Shown piece after piece: positions 7,960 through 43,512 of a stretch of 64,000 nucleotides of DNA. Numbering within the stretch: the stretch's first letter is position 1; every line of letters begins with the position of its first letter. The translations under genes were made by a program, and so were the position numbers. The DNA comes from Bacilli bacterium (GTDB lineage Bacteria > Bacillota_I > Bacilli_A > RFN20 > CAG-826), in assembly GCA_017468925.1 (NCBI GenBank), contig JAFUHI010000009.1, positions 338,162-402,161 of the forward strand. The letters run 5' to 3'. The notes under the pieces were generated by a model that did not search any database, was not told the DNA's origin, and saw only the letters and a program-made list of their open reading frames with translations.

Positions 7960-9012
7960 ATGATAAGTAATCCATTTAATTTGATGTATGGCAGGATTCC
8001 AAACGAAAGTTTTGTCGAAAGAGATTACATTGTTGACAATGTTATGAGCGTGTTTAGTGGAGACAATCCATCGACAATGGCTTATGCAATAACTGGTGTC
8101 AGGGGTAGCGGGAAAACTGTTTTGTTAAGGGATATCACAAACAAGTTTTCGCAGAAAAAAGACTGGATAACCGTCAATCTAAATTTTGGTAGTGATTTAG
8201 TTGTGTCGCTAGCGAACAAATTGCTACACGCTGGGTCGAAAGACAAATTATTCTTAAATTGGAAAATAACCGTAACTGCCTCAATTGTTTCCTTAACTAT
8301 GGGAAGAAGCAAAGAACAAATAACTGATCCAGAAATCATAATAGAAGAGCTGCTTAAAAAAATTAAAAAGAGTAAAAAAAGAGTGTTGATTGCAATAGAT
8401 GAAGTCAATAACACGAAGGAAATGAGATATTTTGCCAATGTATTTCAGACAGTTATTGGGCGTGGCTATGACGTTTTCTTGCTAATGACTGGATTGGAAA
8501 ACAATATATTATCTTTATTTAATAATAAAGCCACATCATTTTTGGCAAGAACGCCAAAAATCAAATTGAATCCGTTGGATATAAAAGAAATCGCAATGAA
8601 ATATCAAAAGCACCTTGGCCTAAACATGGAGAGGTCGATTGAATTGGCCAAAATTACAAAAGGTTATGCCTTTGCATATCAGGTCTTGGGCTATTATTTA
8701 TTCGAAGACAGCGACCTCCCACTAGAAAGTATTTTGAATAAATTTGATTCTTATATGAGAAACAACGGATACGATGTTATTTTTAATGATTTAACATCGA
8801 CCGAGAAGAAATTCTGCCTCGCCTTAGAGGAATGCAATTCCCAAGATGTATCAGAAGTCGCCAAGGCATCGAAAATGAATAGCAACAATTTCAACAAATA
8901 CCGCCTTATATTGATTGAAAAGGGTATCATCGAGTCGGTCGGCTATGGGAAAATAAGTTTTGTCTTGCCGAGATTTAACGAATTTGTTTCCTATGTCAGA
9001 TTGTATCGGTAG
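7960..9012 (+). CDS. AAA+/STAND-type ATPase with C-terminal winged helix
   Basis: A 350-residue cytoplasmic P-loop ATPase. Walker A is GVRGSGKT (46-53) and Walker B VLIAIDEVNN (about 142-151). The organisation resembles Orc1/Cdc6-like and archaeal-type ATPases found widely as orphan genes in gut bacteria: a nucleotide-binding core, a helical lid (about 200-255) and a helix-turn-helix-like end (EVAKASKMNSNNFNKYRLILIEKG). GAGGTGA precedes the ATG. It sits in an element scar behind a TTGTAC repeat array that its own winged helix could bind, though that is inference. It may be a regulator, a replication or partition factor of a lost element, or a signalling ATPase. Confidence 0.75.
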   Translation: MISNPFNLMYGRIPNESFVERDYIVDNVMSVFSGDNPSTMAYAITGVRGSGKTVLLRDITNKFSQKKDWITVNLNFGSDLVVSLANKLLHAGSKDKLFLNWKITVTASIVSLTMGRSKEQITDPEIIIEELLKKIKKSKKRVLIAIDEVNNTKEMRYFANVFQTVIGRGYDVFLLMTGLENNILSLFNNKATSFLARTPKIKLNPLDIKEIAMKYQKHLGLNMERSIELAKITKGYAFAYQVLGYYLFEDSDLPLESILNKFDSYMRNNGYDVIFNDLTSTEKKFCLALEECNSQDVSEVAKASKMNSNNFNKYRLILIEKGIIESVGYGKISFVLPRFNEFVSYVRLYR

Positions 9013-24189: not shown

Positions 24190-24618
24190 ATGGAAAAAGA
24201 AAAAGCTTTAGAACTATGGGATGTTATTTACGGGAAAGGAACTGTCTGGGCAACTGATTGTTTTGGCACTTGGATGTGTCGTGATGATTACGGAGACACT
24301 GAAAAGAAAAGGGTGCGACCTGGTAACACTGATGAATTTGAATATGGTTGGGAGATTGATCATATTAGACCAAAAAGTAATTTTGGCGAAAATGCTGATC
24401 CAGATTTGTTAAACAACTATGAGATCGTGCATTGGAGGAACAATAGGGGCAAAGGGGATAATTATCCACAGTTTGCGCTAGGTGATAAAACATTCAAAGT
24501 CATTAAATGCGATATTTGTGAAAGTAATGATTTAAAAGGATATGGGATTGTTGATTCAGACAACAAAAGAATAGATTGGAAAGGGCGAGCGGGCAAATGC
24601 TTTGCCAACAATAAATAA
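24190..24618 (+). CDS. HNH endonuclease-like protein
   Basis: 142 residues. The motif WEIDHIRPKSNFG (residues 54-66) followed by LLNNYEIVHWRNNRGKG (73-89) is a clear HNH beta-beta-alpha-metal fold with Asp57-His58, Asn76 and His81. A CxxC at KCDICES in the tail may bind zinc. GGGGA stands nine bases before the ATG. Solitary HNH proteins like this occur in defence islands and mobile elements as DNA nickases or restriction-like nucleases. Its neighbours are a frameshifted AbiH and element debris, consistent with a defence hot spot. The target is unknown. Confidence 0.75.
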   Translation: MEKEKALELWDVIYGKGTVWATDCFGTWMCRDDYGDTEKKRVRPGNTDEFEYGWEIDHIRPKSNFGENADPDLLNNYEIVHWRNNRGKGDNYPQFALGDKTFKVIKCDICESNDLKGYGIVDSDNKRIDWKGRAGKCFANNK

Positions 24619-24644: not shown

Positions 24645-24931
24645 ATGAGAATTTTTATAATAGGTAATGGTTTTGATTTAAGTCATGGTCTAGAAACAAG
24701 GTATAAGGATTTTAAAAAATATATTGAGCAAACTTATCTTTTAACTTTTAATCAATCTTTCTTGCCATATCCTGTACAAAAATATACGAAAACAATGTTT
24801 CTCTAAATAGAAAAAGGATTGTTGAAGAGTCAAACGCCATCAAAAAACTGTTTGTTGATTTGGTGTCTTGCAATGCCGGTCTTTCTTTTTTAGTCAACAA
24901 TCCAGATTACATCAGTTTCATAAACGACTAG
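24645..24931 (+). pseudogene. AbiH-like phage-resistance gene, frameshifted and truncated
   Basis: The ATG at 24645 opens MRIFIIGNGFDLSHGLETRY, the signature N-terminus of AbiH family abortive-infection proteins (IIGNGFDLSHGL). The frame stops after 53 residues at 24804-24806. Coding-like sequence continues in another frame (YENNVSLNRKRIVEESNAIK and on) to a TAG at 24929-24931. AbiH proteins are normally several hundred residues, so the rest is missing. It follows the HNH gene by 26 bases. Confidence 0.72.
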
Positions 24932-36535: not shown

Positions 36536-36560
36536 TAGAAGTATTTACAAAAAGGTTGCT
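36536..36560. repeat. Left terminal inverted repeat of the IS
   Basis: Begins TAGAAGTATTTACAAAAAGG; its reverse complement is found exactly at 37548-37572. Confidence 0.92.
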
Positions 36561-37413
36561 CACTTTTTCTGATTATATCTATCTTTTATGCGATAAGTGA
36601 TTTTAGATTGGAAGCATTTTAATTCCAATTGAGTCACTTTTTCATTGATGTTATATGCATTGATAGTTGATCTAAAGACAATCCAATTGAGATAATCTTG
36701 CAAATTCTCGCTTCTTGAACCGATATGGATAATCATATTTCTTTCTATCTCTCCGCAGAAAGAATTGATGGGTTGCATATGTTTTTTTTGGATTCTCTGG
36801 CAACCGATTTCCATATTTCATCAGTCGCATTCAATTCTTTTATAAGTTTATCGTGAGAAAATATTCCATCATGAATAATGTGACTGCCAGGGGCGATATG
36901 TTTGCCATATGAACCAAGGCACTGCTTGCTTGATATATGCCCTCTTCCCACTATTTCGGCATATTTATTGCCGTTGTTGTCTATCGCGCAAGCAACCACT
37001 ATTTGGTTAATGGATTGCCCTCGATATTTAAGACCATTAGCTTTTGTGACCAGATATCTTTTATTGACCGGTATTAATTTCTCATCGATCCAAACTGTGT
37101 TTGATAACATTGTTTCCTTTATCATTTGGCCCGCGACTTTATATATTTTCATTCTCCACATATAGGCAGTTCTGCTGGATATGGATAAAACATCCATGAT
37201 CGTTTCTATCTTGCTATCATCAATGACCAATATTATCAGCTTCCTTAATGTCTCTTTGTCTAGTTTCGCTGATGAAAACATTGTTTTAGTCGCTTCAAGA
37301 AATATTCTTTCGCATGACGAACATTTATATCTCTGTTTGCCTTCTCTTTTTCCGTTTTTCTTAAAAATGAAATCGCCGCAGAATGGGCAAAATAACTTCT
37401 TTGAATCCATCAA
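36560..37413 (-). CDS. IS1595-family transposase, expressed by predicted -1 frameshift
   Basis: Two frames make one protein. The first (start 37413, stop 36745) has an N-terminal zinc ribbon CPFCGDFIFKKNGKREGKQRYKC and SSCE, a helix-turn-helix and the DDE-type core (VWIDEKLIPV, VACAIDNNGNKYAEI, IIHDGIFSHD). The second (ending 36560) carries the family's C-terminal end MQPINSFCGEIERNMI and SENLQDYLNWIVFR. The frames meet at A_AAA_AAC (36781-36787 on the minus strand), a canonical -1 slippery heptamer inside an A8 run. The fused product would be about 284 residues, near normal. It could alternatively be an inactivated gene or use transcriptional slippage. An unshifted product ends at 222 residues without the C-terminal part. 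Confidence 0.82.
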
Positions 37414-37547
37414 AAAAGTTCCTTTCTAAAACGTAAGCAACCATCAACGAAAGGAACTGTGCTAGCAAAACCAATATTGATGGCTGCCTACGTTCGTTTT
37501 ACTAGCAAACTCATTATACAACAAAAGATTGCTGTCCTTAATCTATC

Positions 37548-37572
37548 AGCAACCTTTTTGTAAATACTTCTA
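37548..37572. repeat. Right terminal inverted repeat of the IS
   Basis: Exact inverted copy of 36536-36560. It lies 50 bases before the phosphatase start codon. Confidence 0.92.
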
Positions 37573-37622: not shown

Positions 37623-38120
37623 ATGAAAGAAGTATATAAAAATCTATTTGTTGGATCACAATTTGATTATGAATGTAATCCTAAAATGTTCGATGATTGG
37701 TTTGTGGTTCATGCCTGTAAAGAACCTTATCACAGAAAAGCTTTAGGTTATACTGGGCGATCTGCGCCAAAGGACGACCCACGTTATTTATTTTTATATG
37801 ATGAAAAGAACCATTTGATTTTAAATATGGTTGATACTGATTCTCCAGAATTCTTTCGAGACGAAATGATTAATGAAGCCATTTTTTATGTTATAGGAGG
37901 ATTAAAAAAGGGGAAACGTGTTTTAATACATTGCAATCAAGGTGAGTCCAGAGCTCCATCTCTAGCACTCCTTTTATTAAATCAATTAGGAGTGTTGTCT
38001 TGTGACTTTGATGAGGCAATTAAAGTATTTGTCAAATTTTATCCAGATTATATGCCAAAACTTGGAATTTTAACTTACGTGAGAAGGAGATGGGTCCATG
38101 AAACTAAGAATCGAAATTAA
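37623..38120 (+). CDS. Dual-specificity/tyrosine phosphatase-like protein
   Basis: 165 residues, a compact cysteine-based phosphatase. The P-loop is HCNQGESRAPS with nucleophile Cys104 and Arg110 (CX5R); a general acid Asp is likely in VDTDSPEFF (Asp71 or Asp73), about 31 residues upstream as in dual-specificity enzymes. No signal peptide. Its end overlaps the following ATPase gene by 23 bases, so both are made together. Targets could be phosphoproteins, but small DSP-fold enzymes also act on nucleotides, RNA or phosphoinositides. The pairing with an ABC-type ATPase suggests a regulated two-protein system. Confidence 0.85.
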   Translation: MKEVYKNLFVGSQFDYECNPKMFDDWFVVHACKEPYHRKALGYTGRSAPKDDPRYLFLYDEKNHLILNMVDTDSPEFFRDEMINEAIFYVIGGLKKGKRVLIHCNQGESRAPSLALLLLNQLGVLSCDFDEAIKVFVKFYPDYMPKLGILTYVRRRWVHETKNRN

Positions 38121-40278
38121 CAAATGCCATGGTATTTATTCCATCAATGAAACATTAGATTTTAATGATAAACCAGTGATTATTCATGCTCCAAATGGGA
38201 CATTTAAAACCTCTTTTTGCAAAACTTTAGTTGAATGGATAAACGGCAATGATTCATATGATGTTGTTACAGGCGTTATCGGGAGCCGAATTGTAGAAAT
38301 TAATGGCAAAGCAGCTAAACCTGATGAATTTGAAGTGTTTACTGATTTTTCTCATTCTCAACCATTAAGCAATTCAAAAGGAATTTTGTTAAATAATTCT
38401 TTGAGAACGGCCTACGATGCAGCGTTGTCAACTTACGAAAGTCTTAGAGATGGACTTTTGAATGCTGTTAGTAAAAAATATAAAATCAGTAAAATAGATA
38501 TGGTTATTTGCAGAGTTTTTAATGCAAATGATGTGGATGTAGCTTTAAAGAAAATCTACTTTAAATTATCTAGAAAAAAGAAACTAAAAGTGTTTACAGG
38601 CAATTATTCGGATTATTTTTCTGATACCATAGGGAAAAATATTTCAAAGGATCCATCTAAACAAATAATAGAAAAATATCAAAAGATATACAACAAGACT
38701 CTAAAAGAGGCTTTCATAAAGGAAGGAGTGTTTGATTTTTATAATTTAATAAATGTCTCCGAATCTCTTTCCGAAAATAATTATTTCGATGCAGGGAACA
38801 TAATAGTATTAAATGGTGAAAAACCTATAACTACAACAAAAGAATTGAATTCATTTATCGACAGCATTAAAAATGGTATTTCCAAAGATTCCGAACTTCA
38901 ACAAGCTTTTATTGGGTTAGAAACCGATTTTTCAAAAAGAGGAATGAATAAAGTTGCTGAAAACATAAAGTCAGACCCTTCAATGGCTTTGCTTTATAAG
39001 AATTATTCTTCATTTGAAGAATCATATTTGCTTGACAAGTTCAATTCATTTAAATCTGATCTTATTGATATAAATAAACAATATAAAATAAGTAGGAAGA
39101 CCATTAAAAAAATAAAAAGTGAAGCTAAAAAAGACGATGAAATATGGCGAGATGTTATCGACACATTCGATAATCGCTTTAGAATGCCGTTTGATATTGT
39201 TATTGCTGACACACCATCTGCTGTTCTTGGAATTGATGATGTTGCTTATACGTATAAGTATAGAGTCAACGGCAACACGTACGATGTTGATGAAAGCGTG
39301 CTAATTAGCGATGTTTTGTCAGAAGGAGAGTCTAGGGTGTTTAGTCTGTTAAATACTATTTTTAGAATCAAAGAATTAGAAAAAAATGGAAAGCATAAAA
39401 TTTTAGTGTTTGATGATGTGGCAGATGCTTTTGATTATTCTAACAAGCACGCCATAATCGAATATTTAAGAGAGATTTCGCTAAATCCTTTGTTTGATGT
39501 TCTTGTTTTGACTCATAATTTTGATTTTTATAGACATTTTGGAAATAGAATTAGCGGAAGAGGATCATGCAAATTTGCATCTAGTGATGGATATGGGAAT
39601 ATCGCTTTTAGTGATGGAGAATATTTAAAAAATCTCTATACAAATTATTTGCGACAAAAAGCGATGGCACCTAATTCCCTTAATCATGCAATTGCAATTG
39701 TTCCGTTTGCAAGAGCGGCAGAAGAAATAATTAATCCAAATTATGAAACCAATGATACGATCTATGATTTATTAACAAATATTTTGCATTATAGACCAAA
39801 TAGTGGAGCAAGAATTACTGGCAATTCTTATGCTAAAAAGGTTGGGAAATTGTTGAATATGCAGCTCACCTCACTCATTGGGCACAAAACTAGATTGTAT
39901 AAAATAATATATAATCAAGCCATACAAATTGCGGCATCGACTACGATAGACCAAAAAATAGAGGAGAAGATTTTACTTTCGATGGCCATGAGAATTTTTG
40001 GTGAAAAATACATGATATATCACCTAAGAAATACTGGTGTTATAACTAACTCTTTCTGCTTGAATAATGTTCAGTTTGGGCAACTACTCGATTTATTCAG
40101 GAATAACAGCGGTAATAAACATGCAATTGATACGTTAGATTTAATAAGTATTTTTACTCCTATCGAAATACATGTTAATGGTTTTGCTTACGAACCGTTG
40201 ATTGATTATTCAATTGTTAGACTTAGAAAACTATTTAAAGACCTGGATATGTTGCTTGGAAAAACACTGAGACCTTGA
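38098..40278 (+). CDS. ABC-type (RloC/PrrC-like) ATPase with uncharacterised C-terminal domain
   Basis: 726 residues. Walker A is HAPNGTFKTS (30-39), a variant P-loop common in phage-defence ATPases of the AAA_13/PrrC/RloC kind. A long charged helical insert (about 110-370), probably coiled coil, splits the domain. Signature LSEGES (407-412), Walker B ILVFDD (435-440) and the H-loop LTHNFDF with His473 complete an ABC ATPase. The last 240 residues form a separate domain with FARAAEEI (Arg539, Glu543) and ILHYRPNS (His564), whose Arg-x3-Glu and His recall the anticodon-nuclease triad of PrrC/RloC; this is a suggestion only. The start is inside the phosphatase gene (23-base overlap). I know no named system with this gene pair. 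Confidence 0.8.
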   Translation: MKLRIEINKCHGIYSINETLDFNDKPVIIHAPNGTFKTSFCKTLVEWINGNDSYDVVTGVIGSRIVEINGKAAKPDEFEVFTDFSHSQPLSNSKGILLNNSLRTAYDAALSTYESLRDGLLNAVSKKYKISKIDMVICRVFNANDVDVALKKIYFKLSRKKKLKVFTGNYSDYFSDTIGKNISKDPSKQIIEKYQKIYNKTLKEAFIKEGVFDFYNLINVSESLSENNYFDAGNIIVLNGEKPITTTKELNSFIDSIKNGISKDSELQQAFIGLETDFSKRGMNKVAENIKSDPSMALLYKNYSSFEESYLLDKFNSFKSDLIDINKQYKISRKTIKKIKSEAKKDDEIWRDVIDTFDNRFRMPFDIVIADTPSAVLGIDDVAYTYKYRVNGNTYDVDESVLISDVLSEGESRVFSLLNTIFRIKELEKNGKHKILVFDDVADAFDYSNKHAIIEYLREISLNPLFDVLVLTHNFDFYRHFGNRISGRGSCKFASSDGYGNIAFSDGEYLKNLYTNYLRQKAMAPNSLNHAIAIVPFARAAEEIINPNYETNDTIYDLLTNILHYRPNSGARITGNSYAKKVGKLLNMQLTSLIGHKTRLYKIIYNQAIQIAASTTIDQKIEEKILLSMAMRIFGEKYMIYHLRNTGVITNSFCLNNVQFGQLLDLFRNNSGNKHAIDTLDLISIFTPIEIHVNGFAYEPLIDYSIVRLRKLFKDLDMLLGKTLRP

Positions 40279-40345: not shown

Positions 40346-40807
40346 AAGACAACGGCCATCGCTGAAAAAATACCAAATGGAAAATATAGTCGATATTCCG
40401 ACGATATCACCGTATCATCTTCCAAAAGAATACCAGTTAGTGTTCTCTGTGATATAGAAAATATCCTAGAAAATAATAAACTCATGATCAATCGCAAAAA
40501 AACACATTTTTCATCAAATGTTGATAATGTTTTGGTTACTGGCATTAGGATAAAAAGAAACGAATCTGTATCGTTGTCAACTTCATTTAAAAAAGATCTT
40601 AAAACAAGAATCTATCATAAGCTTAGATTTGGAAGCAATTCCGCGGAAAATGCATCGGTCTTGTTGGGCTTACTTAATTATTTAAAAATGATAGATATTC
40701 ATTATTTTAACAAAATAAATGCAAAATATCTTTCGGAAGACGGTTTGACTTGCTGTGAACAGCTTAAAAGAATAATCGCAACTGAGAAGCAAAAAAAGAC
40801 TGTATGA
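40346..40807 (+). pseudogene. C-terminal half of a retron-type reverse transcriptase
   Basis: A 153-codon open frame without a start before its key motif. It reads KYSRYSDDITVSS, the catalytic Y-x-D-D of retron and related bacterial reverse transcriptases (YSDD at 40394-40405), then LMINRKKTHFSSN and VLVTGIRIKRNESVSLSTSF, the motif following the palm (VTG) and the thumb helix KKDLKTRIYHKLRFG. The fingers and first palm half are missing: a TGA precedes at 40343-40345. The only ATG (40484) lies after the YSDD motif. It is therefore a truncated gene, separated by 67 bases from the ATPase stop, unless an unseen frameshift restores more. Confidence 0.78.
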
Positions 40808-42465: not shown

Positions 42466-43512
42466 ATGAGTGAGAGTAATTTAGAAAAAATATTAGCATT
42501 CCACGAGTTGGTAATGGGTAAAAGCGATGAATACAAAAAAGAAAAAGCCAAAGATTTTAACATTGATTTTGAAGAATATAAAAGACGAATAAAAGGTAAA
42601 GAAAAAGAAGCTGAATTTTTGATAATTATGCGCTCACTTAGAAGTGTGTCACATTTAGTTGCTTATGATGAAAGCTTGTCCAAAATAACAAATGAATTTA
42701 CATCAGATTATGAAATTACCTTTAGAGATAACTACAAAATTTTGCTTGAGATAAAATCATCTCACGAATTATCAAAAAGAATTATTTCTGGAGGGAATTT
42801 TGAAAAACGCCTCGATTTTGCTAAAAGCAAAAATATGCCATTAAGATTTGCCGTTTGCTTGGGTGGACATTGGGGTGTTTATACGTCTGATTATCTTAAA
42901 TCCAAGAACTTTGTGTTGGATTATTCAGACACAATGAACGAAGATAATCTAAAAAAATCTTGGCTTCAGAGCGAGTTTGGAACATGTTCATATGCATTTT
43001 TTAATAAAATTGAAATTATTAGCATTTATGAAAAAAACACCAAAAAAGGTTTGGGGATTTTCTTTGAAGATTATGGAGAATTAATCGAATATCGAATTCT
43101 TCAAGATGGTAAAGAGGTATTTAAATGTAACAAGAACAATTCAACGAATTTGTTTGTTTCAATGTGTGTTGAAGCCATTCAAGATGAATTATCGAAAGAC
43201 AATCATTATGTATATAAAAATGGAAATAAAACAAAAATAATAGAATTTAATACTAGAAAGCCATTATTAATACCAGAATACCGTTTTATATTATCGAGAA
43301 TAAACCATTTATCTTTTGGACATGATAGCAGAGATGATGATCTATTTTTTGTGGCAAAATCTTCACAAGAAGAATTTAATAATTATTCCGTTTCCTATAT
43401 AAGATTTGCGCTTTCAACACTCGTTGACAAAGGGCTAAAGGTTTTTGTTGAGAGGGACGGACTCTTATATAAATTTTCGCAATTTTCAAAAACGTTTTGG
43501 AATGTAAAATAA
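42466..43512 (+). CDS. Predicted PD-(D/E)XK-type nuclease
   Basis: 348 residues with no close relative that I recognise. Residues 80-99 read SDYEITFRDNYKILLEIKSS: Asp81 followed 14 residues later by Glu95-Ile-Lys97 is the D...E-x-K pattern of PD-(D/E)XK nucleases, in the usual strand-turn-strand setting. An N-terminal helical part (1-65) and a C-terminal part with a winged-helix-like end (ISYIRFALSTLVDKGLKVFV-like) surround the core. It may be a restriction-like or defence nuclease. No methyltransferase lies nearby. It follows the GT2 gene by 41 bases and ends at the edge of the right repeat. Confidence 0.6.
   Translation: MSESNLEKILAFHELVMGKSDEYKKEKAKDFNIDFEEYKRRIKGKEKEAEFLIIMRSLRSVSHLVAYDESLSKITNEFTSDYEITFRDNYKILLEIKSSHELSKRIISGGNFEKRLDFAKSKNMPLRFAVCLGGHWGVYTSDYLKSKNFVLDYSDTMNEDNLKKSWLQSEFGTCSYAFFNKIEIISIYEKNTKKGLGIFFEDYGELIEYRILQDGKEVFKCNKNNSTNLFVSMCVEAIQDELSKDNHYVYKNGNKTKIIEFNTRKPLLIPEYRFILSRINHLSFGHDSRDDDLFFVAKSSQEEFNNYSVSYIRFALSTLVDKGLKVFVERDGLLYKFSQFSKTFWNVK

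Follow-up and report, generated by a model that had tools for sequence, protein, structure and literature searches.

The locus: an overlapping phosphatase and ATPase gene pair

The window, by which we mean the whole 64,000-nucleotide stretch that was analysed, contains a gene for a dual-specificity-type Cys phosphatase (DSP) running directly into a gene for an ABC-type ATPase (Table 1). The original prediction was right that this overlapping pair is real: both ORFs are intact, share 23 bp and carry the motifs that had been named in them. Chance ORFs are excluded, as the DSP has relatives in ~100 loci and the ATPase matches PADLOC family PDC-S46 (PDLC05023) as a full-length member (E=1.2e-147, residues 2-717 of 726). 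The Shine-Dalgarno sequence of the ATPase gene (AGGAG) lies within the DSP gene, 8 nt 5' of the ATPase ATG, and the two proteins are therefore probably co-translated.

Table 1. Features of the phosphatase-ATPase locus, in window coordinates
Feature	Coordinates	Strand	Description or basis
HNH-like ORF	24190-24618		no PADLOC match
Short ORF after the HNH-like ORF	24645-24806		53 aa, looks truncated
IS, zinc-ribbon transposase	36536..37572	-	222 aa, gene 36745-37413; perfect 25-bp terminal inverted repeats (36536-36560 and 37548-37572)
Dual-specificity-type Cys phosphatase (DSP), HACKEPYHR subfamily	37623..38120	+	intact ORF, 165 aa; Cys104, Arg110, Asp71
Shine-Dalgarno sequence of the ATPase gene	38085-38089		AGGAG
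DSP/ATPase gene overlap	38098..38120	+	23 bp; sequence
ABC-type (SMC/Rad50/RloC-like) ATPase, family PDC-S46	38098..40278	+	intact ORF, 726 aa
S46 C-terminal helical domain, candidate effector	39640..40275	+	~residues 515-724; conservation, predicted helices
Retron-type reverse transcriptase remnant	40346..40807	+	5'-truncated; YSDD motif and thumb
Gene once taken as PD-(D/E)XK-like	42466-43512		348 aa

Two of the neighbours listed in the original prediction were confirmed, namely the IS, which is bounded by perfect terminal repeats and stops 50 bp short of the DSP gene, and the reverse transcriptase (RT) fragment. No exact repeat indicative of a target-site duplication was found in the AT-rich flanks of the IS. 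The RT, whose frame is open from its first listed base, matches PADLOC RT_I-A (E=3e-14) and the NCBIfam St85 RT (E=9e-12, C-terminus only); lying directly 3' of the ATPase gene, it is a scar of former turnover at this site. The G+C content is 29-34% from the IS through the 348-aa gene, as would fit a recent acquisition; the window as a whole has 37.7% and the DNA immediately downstream 41%. The remaining neighbours fared less well. For the 348-aa gene, thought to be PD-(D/E)XK-like, neither Pfam nor NCBIfam gave a match, and PADLOC gave only a weak one (E=0.006). The predicted HNH gene is present as an HNH-like ORF ~13 kb away, while the AbiH gene is reduced to a 53-aa fragment, which we take to resemble the AbiH N-terminus. 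Nor is the site a dense defence hot spot: a polysaccharide-biosynthesis cluster makes up most of the wider surroundings. Retron and Septu-type ATPase-nuclease systems have a dedicated RT or HNH partner, whereas here the RT is a remnant and the HNH-like ORF is distant.

The ATPase and its C-terminal domain

The ATPase carries a P-loop (APNGTFKTS, with Lys37), an ABC signature (LSEGES, residues 407-412), Walker B (ILVFDD) and an H-loop (LTHNFDF), and also matches phrog_38705 (E=2e-64). PADLOC lists PDC-S46 (S46 hereafter) as a single-gene phage-defence candidate, and the window ATPase shares the full model; on its ATPase side, then, the locus is not an undescribed system, as had been suggested. 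We found no paper testing PDC-S46 in the open-access literature. Scans with the ATPase as a single sequence returned no relatives in genome or viral contigs; family and profile searches found some, and 43 full-length S46 sequences could be aligned with it. The searches found members in about 1-3% of genomes (~10 full-length in 392, 3 in 289 and 3 in 296), as well as on plasmids and viral contigs. They are usually solitary, with neighbours that vary over 44 other loci and include no constant partner, the DSP overlap in the window being the exception. Two S46 genes lie between hsdS and hsdR (L152, L195), a slot known for restriction-linked ORFs, and two more within type III RM loci (L003, L157).

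The AF2 model of the ATPase is of moderate quality (pLDDT 75.9, pTM 0.56), and a Foldseek search with the whole model returned only SMC, Rad50 and PtuA-type heads. When the ABC region was compared with 20 RloC-type proteins, hhalign gave 98.7 (E=2.7e-16), so that a Rad50-like ABC head is present. Behind the head, the last ~210 residues are all-helical in the AF2 model. Ten positions in this part are invariant among the 43 diverse S46 sequences (R539, H564, K624, R632, H692, N694, F696, E699, P700 and D703) and E636 is conserved at 95%; judged by conservation, the invariant residues look like an active site. The domain has no Pfam match and no PDB relative by profile.

We considered whether this could be the nuclease domain of RloC or PrrC, whose triad is Arg-X3-Glu-X36-52-His (PMC2610378). 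Two arrangements in S46, R632-X3-E636-X55-H692 and R539-X3-E543-X20-H564, recall the pattern with different spacings, the X55 of the former falling outside the X36-52 of RloC. Profile comparison with the RloC-type nuclease domain, however, shows no similarity (probability 0.2), and the RloC zinc-hook CXXC occurs nowhere in the 726-aa sequence. RloC/PrrC-type ATPases, offered in the original prediction as relatives, are thus relevant for the ATPase part and not for the C-terminal domain. What RloC/PrrC, PDC-S06 and Pfam AAA_13 share with S46 is a Rad50/RloC-like ABC ATPase joined to a C-terminal helical domain, and RloC/PrrC also share the hsdS-hsdR slot. A HEPN/RloC identity found no profile support and is not adopted here; on the conservation and the predicted helices we regard the S46 C-terminal domain as a candidate effector domain and do not call it a HEPN nuclease. 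An ORF with this domain only (L056:6267-6911, E=4e-69) lies between sbcC and an exonuclease gene; the domain may be able to exist alone, or this copy may be a remnant.

The phosphatase and its genomic company

The active-site loop of the DSP reads H103-C104-NQGES-R110, and Asp71 is the likely general acid. The window protein itself matches Pfam DSPc below the gathering score (E=6.6e-5), and a profile built from 79 relatives reaches VHR/DUSP3 at 4e-10. Its AF2 model is confident (pLDDT 96.6) and finds human DUSPs as its best PDB matches (DUSP8, DUSP12, MKP5 and VHR, E about 1e-6), so that predicted structure and structural matches agree on a DSP fold. The 79 sequences all share C104, N105, G107 and R110, and at least 90% of them keep D71, i.e. 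the HCX5R(S/T) P-loop and the general acid are both present. Judged from homology and the model, a VHR-like protein phosphatase that removes phosphate from Ser, Thr or Tyr is the most likely identity of the protein. It shares the HCX5R loop, the general-acid Asp and the fold with VHR/DUSP3-type enzymes, and differs from them by an N-terminal segment of its own subfamily, HACKEPYHR, and by its occurrence in immune operons and phages. This basic, strongly conserved segment, together with HCNxGxSR, marks a coherent subfamily.

Relatives with 31-50% identity are spread over Bacteroidota, Pseudomonadota, Acidobacteriota, Planctomycetota, Chloroflexota, archaea, Patescibacteria and phages. Among the sampled genomes of the window's own phylum, the true subfamily was seen only in the window genome and one other (G211); the remaining matches there are far weaker and come mostly from UGA-recoding (mycoplasma-type) genomes. 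Judging by UGA-reading relatives within the GTDB class Bacilli, the host itself probably belongs to that class. On the maximum-likelihood tree the window DSP forms a long branch with no supported sister.

In bacteria, archaea and phages this subfamily recurs beside unrelated immune genes, including positions inside type I restriction operons; in L065 and L075 the gene order is hsdS-DSP-hsdR. Similarity to the window DSP decided which loci were included, many of the records are metagenome bins, and ORFs were called by length (crude longest ORFs). The 80 immediate same-strand neighbours include Methylase_S (hsdS) nine times, AAA_13 and RhuM four times each, and AbiTii and KAP twice each, with HsdR, HsdM, OLD, UvrD and Mrr also represented. 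The controls were 63 genes of these loci at a distance of 4.5-7 kb. Neither hsdS nor AAA_13 nor RhuM is among the control families listed, which are the 25 commonest and include every family with at least two matches, so that a lone match to one of the three could escape. With the controls taken as 0/63, the excess next to the DSP is significant for hsdS (Fisher p=0.005) and for hsdS, AAA_13 and RhuM pooled (p=3e-5), and not for AAA_13 or RhuM alone. The controls share their islands with the DSP, so that the comparison tests adjacency and understates any general enrichment in such islands.

PADLOC names several of the partners: GajA-GajB (L115, with the DSP first, and L082, with the DSP last), a CD-NTase with a 4TM effector of CBASS (L113, DSP last), PifA (L088), QatA (L058), AbiTii (L052) and the RloC-like ATPase PDC-S06 (L091, L126, L130 and L133). 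The gap from the DSP to a same-strand neighbour is operon-like (30 bp or less) in 48 of 81 loci, as far as crude gene calls allow, and in five loci (L051, L063, L073, L130 and L133) DSP and hsdS overlap by exactly 4 bp in a stop/start arrangement. RM context is scattered over the maximum-likelihood tree of the DSP (its 14 rows need 13 changes, and well-supported branches force at least 4 of these), and the DSP has therefore swapped partners repeatedly. The possibility that the DSP is mere debris can thus be set aside, as members from many unrelated genomes adjoin named immune genes.

PADLOC models recognised 0 of the 79 subfamily members, and we found no paper in the open-access literature that ties such a DSP to defence. 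Phosphatase-type enzymes have been tied to phage defence before, in the DefensePredictor systems DS-8 and DS-9, which are metallophosphatase and HAD phosphatase systems of unknown substrate (PMC13092281), and whose folds differ from that of a Cys-dependent DSP. While the ATPase was already known as a candidate, the immune-linked DSP subfamily, as defined by sequence and gene linkage, is real and apparently undescribed.

Two mobile genes at one locus

The flanks examined in 44 further S46 loci contain no DSP (upper 95% bound 6.6%), and none of 34 other DSP-bearing genomes has an intact S46; the sole S46 sequence among the latter is the C-terminal-only ORF of L056, 1.1 kb upstream of the DSP. 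The absence of the pair elsewhere indicates that the window joins two genes that move independently. The proposal of a new system made of this particular pair is not supported by these counts. The more general idea that a Cys phosphatase is linked to defence ATPases is supported (PDC-S06 at four loci, Gabija at two, QatA and PifA at one each). We read the window pair as an operon assembled by chance from two independently mobile immune genes, S46 being a lone effector and the DSP an interchangeable accessory, and give this reading a probability of about one half.

Under this chance-assembly reading, S46 would work alone as a self-contained sensor-effector. Its ABC ATPase, as a dimer, would sense a phage-caused state such as DNA ends, DNA-bound complexes or nucleotide changes; ATP turnover would then switch on the C-terminal helical domain, probably a nuclease, and the activated protein would damage the infected cell and so stop the infection. 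This is the most likely course by analogy with Rad50, RloC and PtuA. The DSP would be an optional accessory able to join many immune operons, where it would most likely dephosphorylate immune or host proteins, either reversing the marks of phage kinases or setting the firing threshold of the linked effector; this half of the model is suggested by VHR-like homology and gene linkage. In both halves we infer the role in phage defence, the nuclease activity, the sensed state, the phosphatase substrate and the direction in which the phosphatase acts. Rather more tentatively, the subfamily might be a common accessory of immunity in bacteria and archaea, serving type I restriction, Gabija, CBASS, RloC-like ATPases, Qat, PifA and S46, and tuning them by protein dephosphorylation or undoing phage kinase attack. 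Such control of these systems by protein dephosphorylation is not described in the sources searched. GajAB is flanked by the same DSP subfamily in two loci, whereas no GajA or GajB adjoins the window DSP, and S46 is a different ATPase.

The most serious rival holds that the DSP is phage-derived passenger cargo, serving counter-defence or the takeover of host phosphorylation, which gathers in islands independently of its neighbours. It owes this rank to DSP genes that lie on phage contigs or in loci lacking a tight immune partner, and these also mean that the DSP may have a wider role. The gene is found on 20 viral contigs, in some of them adjoining terminase-like genes and with no immune gene adjacent, and matches five phage records; alphaproteobacterial and Chitinophaga loci show no tight immune partner, and the same islands carry much other cargo. 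Passive gathering sits poorly, however, with repeated insertion into compact hsd operons, several times with a 4-bp hsdS overlap, with the positions beside Gabija and CBASS, and with the independent re-pairing seen on the DSP tree, and we consider it unlikely.

Somewhat less probable still is that the DSP acts as an antitoxin-like brake, silencing a self-harming ATPase or nuclease by keeping that protein, or a partner, dephosphorylated until phage infection lifts the brake. The DSP gene does come first in the window, overlapping a potentially toxic effector, it precedes PDC-S06, GajA, QatA and PifA in several loci, and PrrC offers a precedent in being silenced by a linked partner (PMC2610378). 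The order is not constant, however, the DSP being last in L082 and L113, and S46 is normally found without a DSP, so that its silence does not need one. Gabija and type I RM, too, are well-known systems that do without a DSP.

We are equally doubtful of a DSP whose substrates are nucleotides or RNA ends (such as NTP, dNTP, RNA 5'-triphosphate or signal nucleotides) and which would thereby tune ATPase and nucleotide-sensing systems. Most of its partners are ATPases, systems that sense nucleotides, or cyclic-nucleotide systems, its conserved HACKEPYHR segment is basic, and the window DSP weakly matches the Pfam Rit1 DUSP-like domain (E=0.09), but its closest relatives in both sequence and fold are protein phosphatases of the VHR/MKP group. 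A specific S46-DSP two-gene system, with the window as a rare instance, is largely refuted by the 0/44 and 0/34 counts and very improbable, despite the 23-bp overlap with its coupled translation signals and the proximity of DSP and S46 C-terminal ORF in L056, which may reflect a looser link.

If linkage reflects function, one small phosphatase would tie together immune systems that are usually studied separately, and reversible protein phosphorylation would be a control point that they have in common, or else a common target of phage counter-attack. The link is easily testable, as one mutation, C104S, can be introduced into several of the linked operons, and for PDC-S46 the candidate effector gains a conserved set of residues for mutation.

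Two groups of DSP loci have surroundings of another kind. Three Chitinophaga genomes (L122, L123 and L129, near 8000-8480) carry a DSP relative with no obvious immune neighbour, in L122 and L129 seemingly at one shared genomic site; a settled, non-defence use of the gene is possible there. A further arrangement recurs in gammaproteobacteria: in two loci (L097:2389-3821 and L099:6524-9212) a HigA-like gene is followed by the DSP and then by an HTH-like gene; in L099 a HigBA-like pair precedes the DSP, and hsdR lies further downstream.
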